64,000 bases of DNA from Pseudomonadales bacterium. Lineage in GTDB: Bacteria; Pseudomonadota; Gammaproteobacteria; Pseudomonadales; Azotimanducaceae. The notes beneath the pieces are model-generated. The model did not search any database. It was not told the DNA's origin and saw only the letters and a program-made list of their open reading frames with translations. Numbering within the stretch: position 1 is the stretch's first letter; each line of letters starts with the position of its first letter. The stretch covers positions 1-64,000 of the forward strand of contig JADHNI010000006.1 in NCBI GenBank assembly GCA_016779585.1. The letters run 5' to 3'. A program made the translations under genes and the position numbers. Below, in pieces: positions 38,499 to 46,074 of this stretch.

Positions 38499-39215
38499 AT
38501 GAGTACTTTTGACAACAGCAACAGGGGTGTACTTGAACCAGCCTACATCCTGCACAGCCGGGATTACCGCGACACCAGCCTGATCATCGATGTGCTCACC
38601 CGGGATTTTGGCCGTTATTCCCTCGTGGTACGCGGTGCGCGTTCATCAAAGTCGAAGATCAGGGGAAGGCTGCAACCATTCACGCCGCTTCTTGTTGGAT
38701 CAACAGGGCGTGGTGAATTGAAAACTGCGACAACAATAGATTTTCCCGGTGCAGCCTGGCGGCTCCAGGGCCAGAACCTTATGCTCGGACTTTATGTTAA
38801 CGAGTTGCTGTACCGTCTTCTTGGAAAGTTTGATCCTGTTCCCGAGATCTATGAATCTTATGAAGACTTGCTGCAGGCGCTTCAGTCTGCGGCTGGCGGG
38901 GTACTTTCAATCAGGTTGTTTGAGTTGACGCTTCTGGAGGCGCTCGGTTACGGCATCAGTTTTGAATATGATGCAGGCAACGGAGAACGCGTGACAGAGC
39001 GGTTTCGCTATCGCTTTATTGTCCAGGAAGGTTTTCGAAAAACGGCGGCCGACGATCATGAAACTTTCACCGGTGCTGAATTGCTGAGCATCGCGGCCAG
39101 GGAACTTGAGCATGTAAGCGACGCGAAGCTTAAACAGGTAACCCGCAGTTCTCTTGGAGTGCTCCTGGGAGAGAAACCCCTAAAATCAAGATCACTGTTC
39201 AGGAGCAGTAGCTGA
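38499..39215 (+). CDS. recO: DNA repair protein RecO
   Basis: The 238-residue RecF-pathway mediator loads RecA on SSB-coated DNA with RecR. The N-terminal OB-fold (AYILHSRDYRDTSLIIDVLTRDFGRYSLVVRGARSSKSKIRGRLQPFTPLLV) and the central helical part (LRLFELTLLEALGYGISF-like region) are characteristic. Its TGA overlaps the acpS ATG. In many Gammaproteobacteria pdxJ lies between recO and acpS; here it does not. Confidence 0.95.
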   Translation: MSTFDNSNRGVLEPAYILHSRDYRDTSLIIDVLTRDFGRYSLVVRGARSSKSKIRGRLQPFTPLLVGSTGRGELKTATTIDFPGAAWRLQGQNLMLGLYVNELLYRLLGKFDPVPEIYESYEDLLQALQSAAGGVLSIRLFELTLLEALGYGISFEYDAGNGERVTERFRYRFIVQEGFRKTAADDHETFTGAELLSIAARELEHVSDAKLKQVTRSSLGVLLGEKPLKSRSLFRSSS

Positions 39216-39598
39216 TGATCGTCAGCGTGGGTACGGATATCGTTGACTCCCGGAGAATAGATCATTCCCTGCGCCGTTTTGGCATGAGATTCCAGAATCG
39301 AATTCTGGGCAAGGATGAACACCGGGCTTTGGATGAACGGGAACTGGCTGCTTACTTAGCGCGCCAGTTTGCAGCCAAGGAAGCGGTGGCGAAGGCGCTG
39401 GGAACGGGGATGCGGCAGGGTGTCAGTTTCAGGTCCATTCGTGTTTATCGCAATGAACAGGGAGCACCCCTGGTTTCACTCGTTGATGGGGCTGATCAGG
39501 TCGCCCGGAAGCTGGGTATCACCAGGATTCATATCAGCCTTTCGGATGAACGCCACTATGCGCTGGCGTTCGCAGTCGCGGTAAACGATCCAATTTAG
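39215..39598 (+). CDS. acpS: Holo-[acyl-carrier-protein] synthase
   Basis: The 127-residue 4'-phosphopantetheinyl transferase activates acyl carrier protein. The Mg-binding Asp is in SVGTDIVDSRRI near 8 and the second motif is RQFAAKEAVAKALGTGM near 56. It is coupled to recO by a TGATG overlap and lies convergent to the gacS-like gene, 16 bp away. Confidence 0.97.
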   Translation: MIVSVGTDIVDSRRIDHSLRRFGMRFQNRILGKDEHRALDERELAAYLARQFAAKEAVAKALGTGMRQGVSFRSIRVYRNEQGAPLVSLVDGADQVARKLGITRIHISLSDERHYALAFAVAVNDPI

Positions 39599-39614: not shown

Positions 39615-41525
39615 TTACCTTGATTCCAGAACGTCGGGATTGTCCCGACGCCAGTTAACCAGTGCGGTGATTTCTCCATTCAACAGGTTGAGTAACAATG
39701 GAATCTGCTGGGCATCGTCCTGTTTCAATGCCGTTTCAAGTTTCTCTATGGCGCGATTGAGCCTCGGAACACCGCAGTATCTGACCGCCCCGTGCAGCTT
39801 GTGCACAGCTTTTCTGAGCGATGGATAATCTGCAGCTACATCGTTTTTGGCTTTCTGGTCCTCGGGCAGCCCGGCAATCAGTAGGTCAAGCAGTTCTGCA
39901 GCCAGTTCAATTCGCTGGTTGGCATTGGCAAGAGACAGATCCAGGTCGAAAACAGGAATCCGATTGCTCGCAGCGGCAGATAATGGCGGGCGAGGTGAAG
40001 CTTTACCCATCCGGTGGATCACAGATTTCAGGTTCTCCATCCGCACGGGTTTGATCAGCACATCATCGATTCCCGCATTGTTGTATTCCTCTTTCTCCTG
40101 CGCTGTGGCGTGGGCTGTCAGACCCACTATGGGTAGCTTCTGGTTAAATGTCCGGATCTGGCGTGTTGCCTCTGCACCACTCATGTCAGGCATCTGGATA
40201 TCCATGAAGACGAGGTCAAAATCATTTTCTTCAACCTGCGCAAGTGCCTCGCTGCCGGACCTGGCGATGGTGACAGTGTGACCGAGTTCGGTGAGCTGCA
40301 TCTCAAGTAGCTGGATGTTTGCCTGGCTGTCATCCACCGCCAGTATCTGCTTGTGAGCCGTTTCATCCTTGACGACAGCGATATCGTGGATCAGCTCGTT
40401 GAGTCGGGCCTGTGTTATAGGGTCATCTACCTGGACCCACAGCGGGTTCTGGTGGAGGGTCCTGTTGCCCAGCAGGAGGACGTAGGTCGAATCGGACGGG
40501 TAAGGGTGCAGTGCGCGAAAAGACTCGCTGGTTTCATCAGCTACGACACAGACATCAACGAAGCCTGAATCGAAGTCAGTGGTAGTCTCGAGACCGAGCA
40601 GGCTAAGTCGACCAGTAATACTCAGGCGTTCCAGTTCTGAATCAGCAACAACCAGGGCGCGCAGTCCCGTTTCCCGTGCAAAGGTACCCGGGTGCGGTCT
40701 TACTGGAAACTCGAGCTTACGAGCCGTCCAGCGAGCGCCGCTGTTGGTCAATGCTTCATCCAGCCTGATTGAAATGACCGGATCGAATTCATCTTTCGAC
40801 TCGTTGTTGAATTCCAGCATGGCACCGTTATCACTGAGGGAGAATTCGATATCCACGGTGCCGGGCGAATCATTCGCCAAATGTTGCGCGAGCAGATGAA
40901 ACAGAATGTCCTGAAATCTCGGCGCGTTGATTTCAACATTGGGCAGACTGGCGTCAGTTGGTATCACCCGAAAATGAACACCCTTCCTGCCTGCTGCGGG
41001 TGCTATTCGAACCAGTACCTCATCTATCAGGTCGAGCAGGTTATGGCTCCCGATACTGCTTGCCTTAAAGGGCTCTCGCAGCAGGGCAGTGAGGTGTGTG
41101 GCGATTCCTATGGCATCATCGTGCTCGCTTTGGTTTATGGTGTTCACAAAATCCCGCCCGAGAGACTGCGCACACTCTCGCAGTACAAGCTCCCAGCGCT
41201 GCTCATCTTCCAGTTGCGCGTACAGCGTTTCGAGGCGCATCGCCTCGTCCCTCAGCTCCGATCGCTGTGCTTCGACACGCTGTTCACTGGCAGCCATCTC
41301 CGCCTGCAACTCTTGAAGTCTGGCAATCGCGTCCAGGTTTTGTCGACGTGCGTGAAAGTCGAGGGCCCGTCTCAGGGGATCCTCTGGCGAAAGCGTCTCG
41401 CCGCGGATAAGGCGATCAATGGCCTGTTCCAGCGATCGGCTGGCCGCGTGTCGTGTCCAGTAGATAGTGAGCGGAATACCCACCAGCACAACCAGGAGAA
41501 AGACTGACCACTCTATGGATGGCAT
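39615..41525 (-). CDS. GacS/BarA-like hybrid sensor with degenerate kinase core
   Basis: A 636-residue protein at the usual gacS position beside cysM-rlmD-relA. It has one membrane segment (residues 7-23), a coiled coil (about 60-110), a HisKA/HATPase-like region (115-275), a degenerate receiver (about 288-380), a true receiver (393-505) and an HPt domain (about 535-625). In the H-box region DFVNTINQSEHDDAIGI, the position of the conserved His is Gln132, and no N-, G1- or G2-box of an ATPase is visible. The receiver residues D398, D399, D442, T470 and K492 and the HPt His575 (HKLHGA) are present. GacS normally exceeds 900 residues with a periplasmic sensor. It may act as a phosphorelay hub fed by another kinase, or be decaying. 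Confidence 0.8.
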   Translation of the reverse strand: MPSIEWSVFLLVVLVGIPLTIYWTRHAASRSLEQAIDRLIRGETLSPEDPLRRALDFHARRQNLDAIARLQELQAEMAASEQRVEAQRSELRDEAMRLETLYAQLEDEQRWELVLRECAQSLGRDFVNTINQSEHDDAIGIATHLTALLREPFKASSIGSHNLLDLIDEVLVRIAPAAGRKGVHFRVIPTDASLPNVEINAPRFQDILFHLLAQHLANDSPGTVDIEFSLSDNGAMLEFNNESKDEFDPVISIRLDEALTNSGARWTARKLEFPVRPHPGTFARETGLRALVVADSELERLSITGRLSLLGLETTTDFDSGFVDVCVVADETSESFRALHPYPSDSTYVLLLGNRTLHQNPLWVQVDDPITQARLNELIHDIAVVKDETAHKQILAVDDSQANIQLLEMQLTELGHTVTIARSGSEALAQVEENDFDLVFMDIQMPDMSGAEATRQIRTFNQKLPIVGLTAHATAQEKEEYNNAGIDDVLIKPVRMENLKSVIHRMGKASPRPPLSAAASNRIPVFDLDLSLANANQRIELAAELLDLLIAGLPEDQKAKNDVAADYPSLRKAVHKLHGAVRYCGVPRLNRAIEKLETALKQDDAQQIPLLLNLLNGEITALVNWRRDNPDVLESR

Positions 41526-41590: not shown

Positions 41591-41641
41591 TCTCCTATCA
41601 TGGCGTCTTTTCCAGGAATACATCACCGGGCTTTCAGAACA

Positions 41642-42532
41642 ATGGCCGACTATCCAACAATCGAAGACTGTATCGGCGAGACACCTCTCGTCAGGCTACA
41701 ACGCATACCAGGCAACACCAGCAACACTATTCTGGCGAAGCTCGAAGGAAATAATCCCGCTGGATCGGTGAAGGATCGCCCGGCAATGAGCATGATCCAG
41801 CGGGCAGAGAGGCGTGGTGACATTAAACCGGGTGACACGCTGATCGAGGCGACCAGCGGTAATACCGGGATCGCGCTTGCGATGGCCGCAGCGATCAAGG
41901 GTTATCGCATGGTACTCATCATGCCCTCGCACATGAGTGAAGAGCGAAAAGCCGCTATGGCTGCCTATGGCGCTGAGCTGGTGATGGTAACCCAGGAAGA
42001 AGGCATGGAAGGAGCGAGAGACCTGGCAACACAGATGCAGGCCGAGGGAAAAGGGCTGGTACTTGACCAGTTCGCCAATCCGGACAACCCGATTGCACAC
42101 TACGAGGGAACTGCGCCTGAGATATATCGTCAGACTAATGGAGAAATCACCCACTTTGTCAGCTCCATGGGTACAACCGGAACCATCATGGGATGCTCCA
42201 GGTATTTCAAGGAAGTAAAACCGGAGATAGAAATCGTGGGTCTGCAACCGGTGCAAGGTTCCCAGATTCCAGGTATTCGCCGCTGGCCTGAAGCGTATCT
42301 GCCGAAGATTTACAAGGCTGATGACGTTGATCGCGTGATAGATGTAGAGCAGTCTGTGGCAGAAGTCATGATGCGTCGCCTTGCCAAGGAAGAGGGAATC
42401 TTCGCAGGCGTTTCTTCAGGGGGTTCGGTGGCAGGTGCAATGATGCTCAGCGAGGAGGTTGAGAACGCCACCATCGTTGCTATCGTCTGTGACCGTGGTG
42501 ATCGCTACCTCTCTACCGGGGTATTCTGCTGA
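41642..42532 (+). CDS. cysM: Cysteine synthase B
   Basis: This 296-residue PLP enzyme makes cysteine from O-acetylserine and sulfide or thiosulfate. The PLP-lysine is in LEGNNPAGSVKDRPAMSMI near 42, the substrate loop is EATSGNTGIALAMA near 70, and SSMGTTGTIMG and SSGGSVAGAM follow. The CysM-type sequence FVSSMGTTG...IPGIRRWPEAYLPKI distinguishes it from CysK. ATG 41642 matches CysM N-termini (DYPTIEDCIGETPLVRLQRIPG); the frame stays open to 41600. Confidence 0.95.
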   Translation: MADYPTIEDCIGETPLVRLQRIPGNTSNTILAKLEGNNPAGSVKDRPAMSMIQRAERRGDIKPGDTLIEATSGNTGIALAMAAAIKGYRMVLIMPSHMSEERKAAMAAYGAELVMVTQEEGMEGARDLATQMQAEGKGLVLDQFANPDNPIAHYEGTAPEIYRQTNGEITHFVSSMGTTGTIMGCSRYFKEVKPEIEIVGLQPVQGSQIPGIRRWPEAYLPKIYKADDVDRVIDVEQSVAEVMMRRLAKEEGIFAGVSSGGSVAGAMMLSEEVENATIVAIVCDRGDRYLSTGVFC

Positions 42533-42573: not shown

Positions 42574-43833
42574 GTGGATGGCTTTGGCTATTCTGCTGAC
42601 GGACGTTTCGCAATCAGCGGTGCTCTGCCGGATGAAGAAGTTACCGGCATGCCGTTTTCGAGGCAGCGAAAAAAACTGTTCCTGAGGCCGTCAGATATTC
42701 AGAATGCCTCACCTGAAAGGGTTCAACCTGCCTGCGGTGCCGCGGCTTATTGTGGCGGTTGTAGCTTTCAGCATGCCAGTCATGACTATCAGTTGTTCCT
42801 GAAGGAATCGTTCCTGAGGGAATGTCTTGTGCCACTGACACCAGAAAAATGGCTACCCGCGATTTCTGGAAAAGACCATCACTACCGCACAAAAGCGCGC
42901 CTGGGTGTTAAGTTCGTTGAGAAAAAGGGCAAGGTGCTGATCGGATTCCGCGAAAAACTGAAACCATTCATTGCAGAAACATCAGCCTGCACGATCCTCA
43001 TTGAGCCGGTTGCCAGTCTGCTCGAGCCAATGGGGCAAATGGTTGAAAAGCTTTCTGTGGCGAAGAAGATTCCACAGGTGGAACTTGCTGCCGGCGACGA
43101 GGACGTGGCCCTGATATTCCGTCACCTGGAGGAGATGAGTGAAGAGGACCTGGCACTGCTCAAGACGTTCGGGGCTGAGCACGGTCTCCAGATTCTGCTG
43201 CAACCCGGCGGGTTGGATTCAACGCATCGAATCTACCCCGAGCCAGGTGCTCTGACGCTGCATTATACTTTACCCGCCCACCAGCTGATTTTTGGGTTTT
43301 CCCCCCAGGATTTCACCCAGGTCAATCTCGAGGTAAACCGCATGATGGTTGACCGGGCACTGGATCTGCTGGACCTCCAGTCAAAAGACAGGGTGTTCGA
43401 TGCCTTCTGTGGAATCGGAAACTTTTCTCTTGCAGTTGCCAGGTATGCGGATCACGTGGTGGGCGCCGAGCAGTCGGAATCCAGCATCGACCGTGCCAGG
43501 CAAAATGCTATTGATAACAAGGTAGTGAATGCCGATTTCCAGGTGGTCGATCTGCATGATGAAACCAGGGAAATCAAAGGGTTAGAAGGTGTTAATAAAG
43601 CTCTGCTTGATCCGCCCCGAAGTGGTGCAGAGATGCTCGTCAAAAAACTTGCCAGTAGTGATATCGAGAGGGTAGTGTACGTGTCCTGCAACCCGGAGAC
43701 GTTGGCGCGAGACGCGAAAATACTGGTCGAAGCAGGTTTTTCGCTCCGCTCTGCAGGAGTTATCAATATGTTTCCCCATACAACCCATGTAGAATCCGTT
43801 GCGCTTCTCGTCCGGGAAGGCAAGTCCAAATAA
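42574..43833 (+). CDS. rlmD: 23S rRNA (uracil-1939-C5)-methyltransferase RlmD
   Basis: A 419-residue SAM-dependent RNA methyltransferase. An N-terminal TRAM-like domain precedes the Fe-S cysteines (CGAAAYCGGCSFQH near 49-58, plus C133 region), then the methyltransferase motifs FDAFCGIGNFSLAVARYADHVVGAEQS near 270, LDPPRSGAEM near 347 and the nucleophilic Cys in YVSCNPETLARD. GTG 42574 is the first standard start but would cut the first TRAM strand. The frame is open upstream and reads ITVQVAKVKVDGFG back to the cysM stop, so initiation may occur at ATT 42523 or CTG 42526/42529. Neighbours cysM and relA match Pseudomonas. Confidence 0.93.
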   Translation: MDGFGYSADGRFAISGALPDEEVTGMPFSRQRKKLFLRPSDIQNASPERVQPACGAAAYCGGCSFQHASHDYQLFLKESFLRECLVPLTPEKWLPAISGKDHHYRTKARLGVKFVEKKGKVLIGFREKLKPFIAETSACTILIEPVASLLEPMGQMVEKLSVAKKIPQVELAAGDEDVALIFRHLEEMSEEDLALLKTFGAEHGLQILLQPGGLDSTHRIYPEPGALTLHYTLPAHQLIFGFSPQDFTQVNLEVNRMMVDRALDLLDLQSKDRVFDAFCGIGNFSLAVARYADHVVGAEQSESSIDRARQNAIDNKVVNADFQVVDLHDETREIKGLEGVNKALLDPPRSGAEMLVKKLASSDIERVVYVSCNPETLARDAKILVEAGFSLRSAGVINMFPHTTHVESVALLVREGKSK

Positions 43834-43860: not shown

Positions 43861-46074
43861 ATGGTTAAGGTCAGACAAGAACAGCCGCTGCTGGTTGATG
43901 GTTCGGTCAACATTGAGATGTGGCTCTGCAAGATTGGTGACAGTCGACCTGAAATCAATCTCGCGCGGCTGCGTGACGTTTGTGAACTCTCCGAGCAGGC
44001 TGAAGAAAAGGCAATTGATGCCAGCACCATCTGGGCTGAAGGCCACAGCAGTTTTCGCACTGGCCTGGAAATGGCCGAAATACTCAATGAACTGCGGGTC
44101 GACGAAGATGCCCTCGTAGCCGCGATTATTTACCGCGCAGTTCGGGAAAACCAGCTGACGATCAACCATGTTCGCAAGCAGTATGGCGAAGACGTCGCGC
44201 GGCTGATCGAGGGTGCCCTGAAAATGGCTGCGATCAGCGATATTCAGTTCGGTGCCCGCAAGAAAGTACTTGGTGAGCGTTCTGACCAGATCGAGCAGGC
44301 GCGGCGCATGCTGGTATCGCTGGTGGACGATGTCCGGGTTGCCCTGCTGAAACTGGCAGAAAGAACCTGTGCCATTCGAAATGCGGCGAAAACCGCTAGC
44401 CCCAAGGGGCTCAAGCTGGCCCGGGAAGTGGTGGAAATTTATGCCCCCCTCGCACACCGGCTGGGAATTGGTCACCTGAAATGGGAACTGGAAGACCTGG
44501 CGTTCCGAATTCGTGAACCGCTGCCTTACAAACGCATAGCCAATCTGCTTGATGAGAAACGAACCGCTCGACAGGATTACATTGCCCAGGTCGTAGAGGA
44601 GATTAATCGGCGTCTCAGGCAGTTTGGCATGGAGGCTAATGTCTCCGGTCGACCGAAACACATCTACAGCATCTGGCGCAAGATGCGCAGGAAAGGTATT
44701 CCGTTTTCAGAAGTTTACGATGTGCGTGCGGTACGAATTCTGGTGAATCATGCCGATGACTGCTATCGGGTCCTGGGTGTTGTACACAACCTCTGGCGCA
44801 ACATTCCCCACGAATTTGATGACTACATCGCCAATCCGAAAGAAAACGGTTACCAGTCACTGCACACGGCTGTCATTGGTCCTGAAGGCAAGGTCCTGGA
44901 AATTCAGATTCGCACCCACGAAATGCATGAAGAGGCAGAATTTGGAGTCTGCTCGCACTGGCAGTACAAGGACGGTGATCACAGGAAAGGCACGGAATCC
45001 TACGAGCAGCGATTGGCCTGGCTCAGGCAGATCATCGAGGGGCAGGAGGAAGATGACGAGGAACTGGACATCGTTTCGGAGATGTCCATCGATCGAATCT
45101 ATGTATTCACACCGGATGGCGACGTGGTTGATATGACGCCGGGCGCGACGCCGGTGGACTTTGCCTACCGCGTACATACAGAGATCGGTCACAAGTGCCG
45201 TGGTGCGAAATTGAACGGTCGCGTTGTGCCCTTGAATACCGAACTGAATTCCGGCGACCGGATTGAAATTATTGTCGGCGAGGAGGCGGAACCAAGAAGA
45301 GAATGGCTGCATGGTCATCTGGGATATGTAGCAACTTCTCGCGCGCGAGCGAAGATCCAGGGCTGGTTTGCCCGTCGCGAACGCGAGAAGAACGTAGATG
45401 AAGGCAAGAAGATGTTGATTGAGGAGCTCAGTCACCTGGGTGTGGAGAACCTCGACTTCTCTGACCTGGTGGATCGGGTAGGTTATGAATCAGCCAACGA
45501 CCTGTTTTATGCCATCGCCATTGGCAACCTTTCAGCTTACGAGGTAGTGGAAGAAGCAGCAGACCTCGTCAATCTCGATGTGGCAGAGCACCAGTTGACC
45601 CTCGGTATAGAAGAGCCCGATGGCGAAGCCTCGCTGATTGCAGGCCAGGGCGATCTGATCTGCACGATGGCCGAGTGTTGCCAGGCGGTACCCGGTGATC
45701 TTATTGTTGGCGTCGTTGACGATGATGACGTTGTACATGTCCATCGTCAGGACTGCCTGCAGGCGCTGCGTGCCGATGTATATGGGCGCCTGATGCGTCT
45801 GGAATGGACTGAGGCGAGGGAGGCGACTTTCCCAGTGAACATTGAGGTCGCGGCTTATGATCGATTCGGCCTTTTGCATGACATCACCGGTATCCTCATG
45901 CGCGAACAGACTAACGTCTTGTCCGTTGATACCAAGACAGACAAACAGAATAACCGGGTCAGCCTGAAGATGGTGATCGAGGTATCGCAGCTGAACAAGT
46001 TGCTGCAAACCCTTGAGAAAATTGAACAGCTGCCCAACGTGATGAGTGCGAAACGCACCATATCACCGACCTGA
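43861..46074 (+). CDS. relA: (p)ppGpp synthetase RelA
   Basis: The 737-residue ribosome-associated alarmone synthetase responds to uncharged tRNA. The N-terminal HD-like domain lacks an intact HD pair (DEDALVAAIIYRAVREN), as in synthesis-only RelA. The synthetase domain has RPKHIYSIWRKMRRKG near 262 and NPKENGYQSLHTAVIGPEGK near 325. TGS (IYVFTPDGDVVDMTPGATPVDFAYRVH), zinc-finger and ACT domains follow. It starts at ATG 43861 after rlmD. With two leader-peptide attenuators nearby, amino-acid starvation is sensed at several levels. Confidence 0.97.
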   Translation: MVKVRQEQPLLVDGSVNIEMWLCKIGDSRPEINLARLRDVCELSEQAEEKAIDASTIWAEGHSSFRTGLEMAEILNELRVDEDALVAAIIYRAVRENQLTINHVRKQYGEDVARLIEGALKMAAISDIQFGARKKVLGERSDQIEQARRMLVSLVDDVRVALLKLAERTCAIRNAAKTASPKGLKLAREVVEIYAPLAHRLGIGHLKWELEDLAFRIREPLPYKRIANLLDEKRTARQDYIAQVVEEINRRLRQFGMEANVSGRPKHIYSIWRKMRRKGIPFSEVYDVRAVRILVNHADDCYRVLGVVHNLWRNIPHEFDDYIANPKENGYQSLHTAVIGPEGKVLEIQIRTHEMHEEAEFGVCSHWQYKDGDHRKGTESYEQRLAWLRQIIEGQEEDDEELDIVSEMSIDRIYVFTPDGDVVDMTPGATPVDFAYRVHTEIGHKCRGAKLNGRVVPLNTELNSGDRIEIIVGEEAEPRREWLHGHLGYVATSRARAKIQGWFARREREKNVDEGKKMLIEELSHLGVENLDFSDLVDRVGYESANDLFYAIAIGNLSAYEVVEEAADLVNLDVAEHQLTLGIEEPDGEASLIAGQGDLICTMAECCQAVPGDLIVGVVDDDDVVHVHRQDCLQALRADVYGRLMRLEWTEAREATFPVNIEVAAYDRFGLLHDITGILMREQTNVLSVDTKTDKQNNRVSLKMVIEVSQLNKLLQTLEKIEQLPNVMSAKRTISPT

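Follow-up and report, generated by a model that had tools for sequence, protein, structure and literature searches.

The gene on the minus strand at positions 39615-41525 of the window, a stretch of 64,000 nucleotides from a Pseudomonadales genome of the family Azotimanducaceae, encodes an orthologue of the hybrid sensor kinase GacS (here P0001) that has lost its kinase centre and retained its receiver (REC) and histidine phosphotransfer (HPt) domains. Judged from its sequence, P0001 is a GacS predicted to be unable to bind ATP or to autophosphorylate, because the H-box and the ATP site are missing. It probably acts as a membrane-anchored phosphorelay intermediate which is fed in trans by another histidine kinase and passes the phosphate on to GacA; the direction of phosphoflow and the partner kinase are what we infer in this reading. 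The selective loss and the repurposed relay hub proposed in the initial annotation were thus supported, as the kinase motifs are lost, REC and HPt are conserved and GacA is present.

The frame stays open over 636 codons from an ATG start and represents a real gene. The gene order at the locus, era-recO-acpS-[gacS]-cysM-rlmD-relA, matches the surroundings of gacS in relatives and overlaps with barA-rlmD-relA of E. coli, and the proposed canonical gacS position beside cysM was therefore borne out by synteny both here and in the relatives. The gene labelled acpS is presumably that gene, being named from its position and from general knowledge of the acpS family. The features of the locus are compiled in Table 1.

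Table 1. Coordinates of P0001, its domains and the neighbouring genes within the window
Feature	Position	Strand	Basis
Kinase-less GacS orthologue, 636 aa (P0001)	39615..41525	-	ORF, Pfam, relatives, synteny
Single transmembrane helix, residues ~1-26, without periplasmic domain	41448..41525	-	Hydropathy; model helix 5-40
Signalling coil with a relic of the DHp, residues ~51-145; Glu117 aligns with the missing H-box His	41091..41375	-	Alignment, model
Pseudo-CA, residues ~159-280, Bergerat fold predicted to be kept; ATP lid and N, G1 and G2 boxes missing	40686..41051	-	Model, fold search
Pseudo-receiver-like domain that follows the CA and precedes REC, residues ~284-385	40371..40676	-	ShkA-like DHp-CA-REC-REC order
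Receiver domain, residues 393-505, with D398, D399, D442, T470 and K492	40011..40349	-	Pfam, alignment, fold search
HPt domain, residues 521-628, phospho-acceptor H575	39642..39965	-	Pfam, alignment
acpS (presumed), landmark of the gacS locus	39215..39598	+	Position
cysM, neighbour of gacS, divergent	41600..42532	+	ORF, synteny
rlmD	42574..43833	+	ORF, synteny
relA	43861..46074	+	ORF, synteny

The only Pfam domains recognised in P0001 were Response_reg (residues 394-503, E 2e-28) and Hpt (542-625, E 7e-8), while neither HisKA nor HATPase matched, and the NCBIfam BarA model covered residues 381-615 only (E 1e-52). The REC-HPt part is of the GacS type according to both this model match and the REC-HPt tree. 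The absence of the ATP-binding N, G1 and G2 boxes was confirmed, and the sensor, described as reduced to one membrane helix, does consist of a single transmembrane helix with no periplasmic stretch. D442 and H575 were said to be kept with their motifs, and indeed D398, D399, D442, T470 and K492 of the receiver and H575 of the HPt domain were invariant in nine orthologues from the genus. The account of the H-box was right in that the phospho-acceptor histidine is absent and wrong in the register that put Gln132 in its place: the family alignment sets the H-box EFLANMSHE opposite RWELVLREC of P0001, which brings Glu117 under the histidine, and FVNTINQ of P0001 pairs with the IIGFTNLL stretch downstream of the H-box. 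The position of Glu117 is taken by I, D, L, Q, S or a gap in relatives.

As the fold search with the whole model was dominated by REC, a separate model was made of the dead kinase part (AlphaFold2, residues 60-284 of P0001 with four orthologues, no templates, pLDDT 77). It comprises a long coil followed by a short hairpin and then an alpha/beta domain. It matched the CA domain of HK853 (5uht) with a Z score of 13.1 at 2.5 A over 118 aligned residues; for 7z8n, a structure of the GacS kinase, the Z score was 12.1 over 169 residues at 7.8 A rmsd. The Bergerat core thus appears to be retained in P0001 with its nucleotide-binding loops lost. For the full-length model, the match of rank 1 was ShkA, a hybrid kinase of the order DHp-CA-REC-REC.

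In an alignment whose 34 rows are kinase-less or fused proteins, the REC Asp and the REC Lys were each conserved in 33 and the HPt His in 31; the latter was lost in G024 and replaced by Asp in the G096 fusion described below. The H-box column held E, I, D, L, G, F, Q, N, S, Y, R or a gap, plus three H which fit one DHp-only form and the two fusions with a new kinase. Among the orthologues of the genus, invariant positions amounted to 32 of 113 in REC, 28 of 108 in HPt, 7 of 122 in the pseudo-CA and 0 of 50 in the relic DHp. The comparison of D442 and H575 with residues 110-275 therefore showed the phospho-sites kept and the relic DHp and pseudo-CA far less constrained, and instead of the random decay which would have spoken against a retained function, REC and HPt were the most conserved parts, their active sites being retained down to 27% overall identity. 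Pairwise dN/dS of the closer orthologue pairs ranged from 0.07 to 0.59 over the domains. As it lies well below 1 in every domain, the P0001-type gene is not a pseudogene; the dead domains are constrained too, less than REC and HPt.

Kinase-less GacS was found in 34 of 207 genomes of the family, mostly from uncultured bacteria, at a match threshold of E<=2e-41. No intact GacS was detected among the 207, the sequences of nearly all 34 matches having been inspected. Within the genus, ten genomes carried a P0001-type gene of ~32% to 71% identity, and the H-box was absent from the proteins of all ten. Since the P0001 orthologues lack an intact H-box as well, with the same loss in ~32 kinase-less orthologues, sequencing error and chance were ruled out as its cause. 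Other families of the order gave full-length matches to the BarA model in 13 of 21 genomes at E<1e-180, and two of these GacS sequences, inspected whole, had both the H-box and the G2 box. A second full gacS, which would have spoken against the proposed relay, was not detectable in the own genome, nor was one found in the congener G014 (100% complete). For the own genome this result covers an assembly that is 94.6% complete, and an intact GacS may still lie in the gap.

The kinase core was lost in more than one form. In G098 (495 aa, L200/L220) the protein has HAMP, a DHp with the H-box His, REC and HPt, and the CA domain is deleted; the G018 form is HAMP-REC-HPt and the G182 form TM-REC-HPt. 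The CA-less GacS of G098 may serve as a target which another kinase phosphorylates in trans with its CA domain. In the tree, which was built on REC-HPt and leaves the deep branches among intact GacS proteins without resolution, the main kinase-less clade comprised 26 rows (support 99/94) and G098 and G018 formed a pair outside it (support 99/90). By this placement, there were at least two independent losses of the kinase core.

The presumed recipient of the phosphate is encoded in the own genome. Both genes of the output side were recovered there on a search proposed by the initial annotation for gacA: GacA has 56% identity to E. coli UvrY and retains the phospho-Asp, its gene standing in the customary order gacA-uvrC-pgsA away from the P0001 locus, and CsrA is encoded as well. 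Within the genus, GacA was found in 10 of 10 genomes with kinase-less GacS versus 0 of 7 without it (p=5e-5), a co-occurrence inflated by the small size or incompleteness of several of the seven genomes that lack GacA and the relay. Across the family the corresponding counts were 31 of 34 versus 99 of 173 (p=7e-5), a test inflated by shared ancestry. Many family members have a GacA-like protein and no detected GacS relic, which suggests that GacA can do without a relay of the P0001 type and is not dependent on it. The genera g7, g43, g50, g54 and g58 have GacA-like proteins of about 36-60% identity with no detectable GacS or relic. The rsm small RNAs, also suggested for a search, were approached through their promoter boxes only: the own genome had 2 GacA boxes (TGTAAG-N6-CTTACA, one mismatch allowed), whereas the reversed control gave 8, so that the boxes were not enriched and lent no support to rsm promoters. 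In G014:C17 (L159 4595-5248), a second GacA-like regulator of 50-52% identity adjoins two NtrB-type hybrid kinases.

We then looked at the kinases that may charge P0001. Contig 18 of the own genome encodes an orphan cytoplasmic hybrid kinase of the order PAS-HisKA-CA-REC (881-aa frame, G000:C18:16346-18952), which ends in a C-terminal REC and has no HPt or output domain. In two sister genera, a PAS-HisKA-CA-REC kinase is fused to a GacS-type REC-HPt, giving proteins of 982 aa (G096:C276, L206) and 826 aa (G174:C553, L207 and L208). As the REC-HPt of these fusions is nested within the kinase-less clade of the tree, the relay would first have lost its own kinase and later joined a different one. 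Among the kinases of the own genome that were compared, the 881-aa kinase was nearest to the kinase halves of the fusions (39% and 36% identity, E 1e-108 and 3e-97), versus 30% (E 5e-70 and 2e-58) for the next one. Full-length orthologues of the 881-aa kinase were nearly confined to genera with kinase-less GacS, the two co-occurred within genera (CMH p=0.009), and the HATPase hits of the reduced genome G007 included no recognised hybrid kinase other than its orthologue. Full-length matches at E<=1e-75 were lacking from the relay-bearing genomes G093 (well-assembled), G183, G184 and G018, among others, and the kinase was present without the relay in G012, G089 and G092; it is therefore not the donor everywhere. 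We tentatively regard this PAS hybrid kinase as the leading donor candidate for P0001, a choice that may well turn out otherwise. On the contig of the 826-aa fusion (G174:C553), a second GacA paralogue (57%) was observed ~13 kb from the fusion.

Donors of the LadS/RetS type, with which the initial annotation had drawn a parallel, were rejected. Kinases with 7TMR-DISM (PF07695) were not found in the own genome G000 (94.6% complete) at E<=1e-8, nor was PF07695 found in G001, G005, G007, G010 and G015, and the donor of P0001, if there is any, is therefore another kinase. A BarA-like hybrid kinase of 668-680 aa beside a YfiR-like protein was likewise rejected as a general donor, as in the genus it occurred only in G001, G004, G005 and G010 among the genomes listed. 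In G001:C392 and G010:C145 (L161/L162), i.e. in part of the genus only, an apparent operon joins the YfiR-like protein, the BarA-like kinase (~668 aa) and an outer-membrane-like protein. The own genome further encodes a 2076-aa hybrid (G000:C113, L156 3485-9715) with a Ser/Thr kinase-like N-terminus, AAA, a GAF/PAS-like middle part and HisKA-CA-REC-HPt. With its own REC-HPt and counterparts in many family genomes, it could serve as a GacA kinase independent of P0001.

In the proposed relay, a separate histidine kinase would charge P0001 in trans by one of two routes, either from the DHp of the donor to D442 of the P0001 receiver and on to HPt, or from the receiver of the donor directly to H575 in the manner of LadS and GacS. 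H575 would then phosphorylate GacA and give rise to the Gac/Csr(Rsm) output, with the dead kinase part probably retaining its fold for dimerisation or docking. Such a relay is chemically plausible because of two precedents. A kinase-dead GacS H294A chimera signals when a partner hybrid kinase phosphorylates its REC Asp (PMC8175716), and LadS, a separate hybrid kinase, signals via the HPt of GacS in P. aeruginosa (PMC4866733). The GacS(H294A)-3082 chimera resembles the present case in that a kinase-dead GacS takes up phosphate at its receiver from another hybrid kinase and serves GacA through its HPt, but it is a laboratory construct with a swapped receiver, whereas P0001 represents a natural state that has become fixed across a family of bacteria. 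With the LadS-to-GacS relay it shares the separate hybrid kinase that reaches GacA via a GacS HPt; GacS of P. aeruginosa, however, is itself a kinase to which LadS is an extra input, while P0001 would be a relay only. To GacS/BarA proper P0001 is orthologous by its locus (acpS, cysM-rlmD-relA), REC-HPt tree and GacA partner, and the order of its domains agrees as well, including the receiver-like domain ahead of REC; it differs in the lack of the periplasmic sensor, H-box and ATP site. In RcsD, which is a membrane protein, the HATPase-like part does not act as the kinase of the pathway, and a functional HPt carries phosphate from the hybrid kinase RcsC to the response regulator (PMC7418988). 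Both proteins combine a degenerate kinase domain of CA fold with an intact HPt, but RcsD has no receiver, has a periplasmic domain and serves RcsC/RcsB, whereas P0001 has a full receiver and sits at the gacS locus between acpS and cysM, with gacA elsewhere. P0001 may thus work like RcsD and, going by domains and locus, is not a member of the RcsD group.

The main rival, a phosphatase role toward GacA also being named in the initial annotation, is that P0001 is a phosphatase or sink, its HPt drawing phosphate from GacA-P and D442 hydrolysing it, so that GacA charged by other kinases or by acetyl phosphate is dampened. All residues needed for reverse transfer (H575, D442, T470 and K492) are conserved, the GacA proteins of genomes without a GacS relic point to other routes by which GacA is charged, and hybrid kinases such as ArcB are known to run phosphoflow in reverse. 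Nevertheless we consider a sink unlikely, since in two genera REC-HPt is attached to the C-terminus of a hybrid kinase that looks active, which suggests forward flow, and the GacS parts without kinase activity in the two precedents relay forward (PMC8175716, PMC4866733). Forward flow could also start from a low-molecular-weight donor. Were acetyl phosphate to charge REC, with relay to GacA, the regulator would be coupled to central metabolism without a kinase; E. coli UvrY is chargeable by acetyl phosphate, the catalytic residues of REC are intact and the candidate donor kinase is not universal. The membrane anchor, the coil and the constrained pseudo-CA would however be superfluous in that case and the fusions point to a kinase, which makes this reading very improbable.

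The same constraint bears on the notion that P0001 is a functionless relic in slow decay, an intermediate of a family-wide loss of GacS. The gene is wholly absent in other genera, and besides the lost HPt His of G024 the reading frame is disrupted ahead of HPt in G181 and split by a stop in G184. Against these cases stand dN/dS below 1 in REC/HPt and in the dead domains, the active sites retained at low identity and the association with GacA, and there is very little chance that decay explains P0001. Conversely, the pseudo-CA fold (Z 13) and the purifying selection on it would suit a scaffold or inhibitor without phosphorelay, in which the dead part would form a heterodimer with another kinase and either inhibit or activate that kinase, comparable to RetS and GacS, REC and HPt being secondary. 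But REC and HPt are by far the most conserved parts, and G018 and G182 keep REC-HPt with the whole kinase part gone; a pure scaffold is accordingly extremely unlikely. The relay from another kinase to GacA remains the reading that we prefer.

In the open-licence literature we came across no description of a GacS that naturally lacks its kinase, and such a GacS as a natural, family-wide state appears to be undescribed. A wider scenario, which we put forward with less confidence than the relay itself and as a possibility only, is that the family dismantled GacS to a relay-only hub through at least two losses of the core, that a different, cytoplasmic PAS hybrid kinase took over the charging of its REC-HPt and that the relay was re-fused to this type of kinase in two genera; if true, the re-fusion would have created a novel Gac sensor responding to another input. 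As a master regulator, GacS/GacA serves as a model for how further kinases feed into GacS, and a lineage with a relay-only GacS would show that the REC/HPt hub is the part retained by selection. It would also offer a clean system, free of a background of self-phosphorylation, for asking which kinase feeds GacA and how the specificity of receiver and HPt is rewired. As the fusion proteins name the likely class of the partner, the hypothesis is directly testable.
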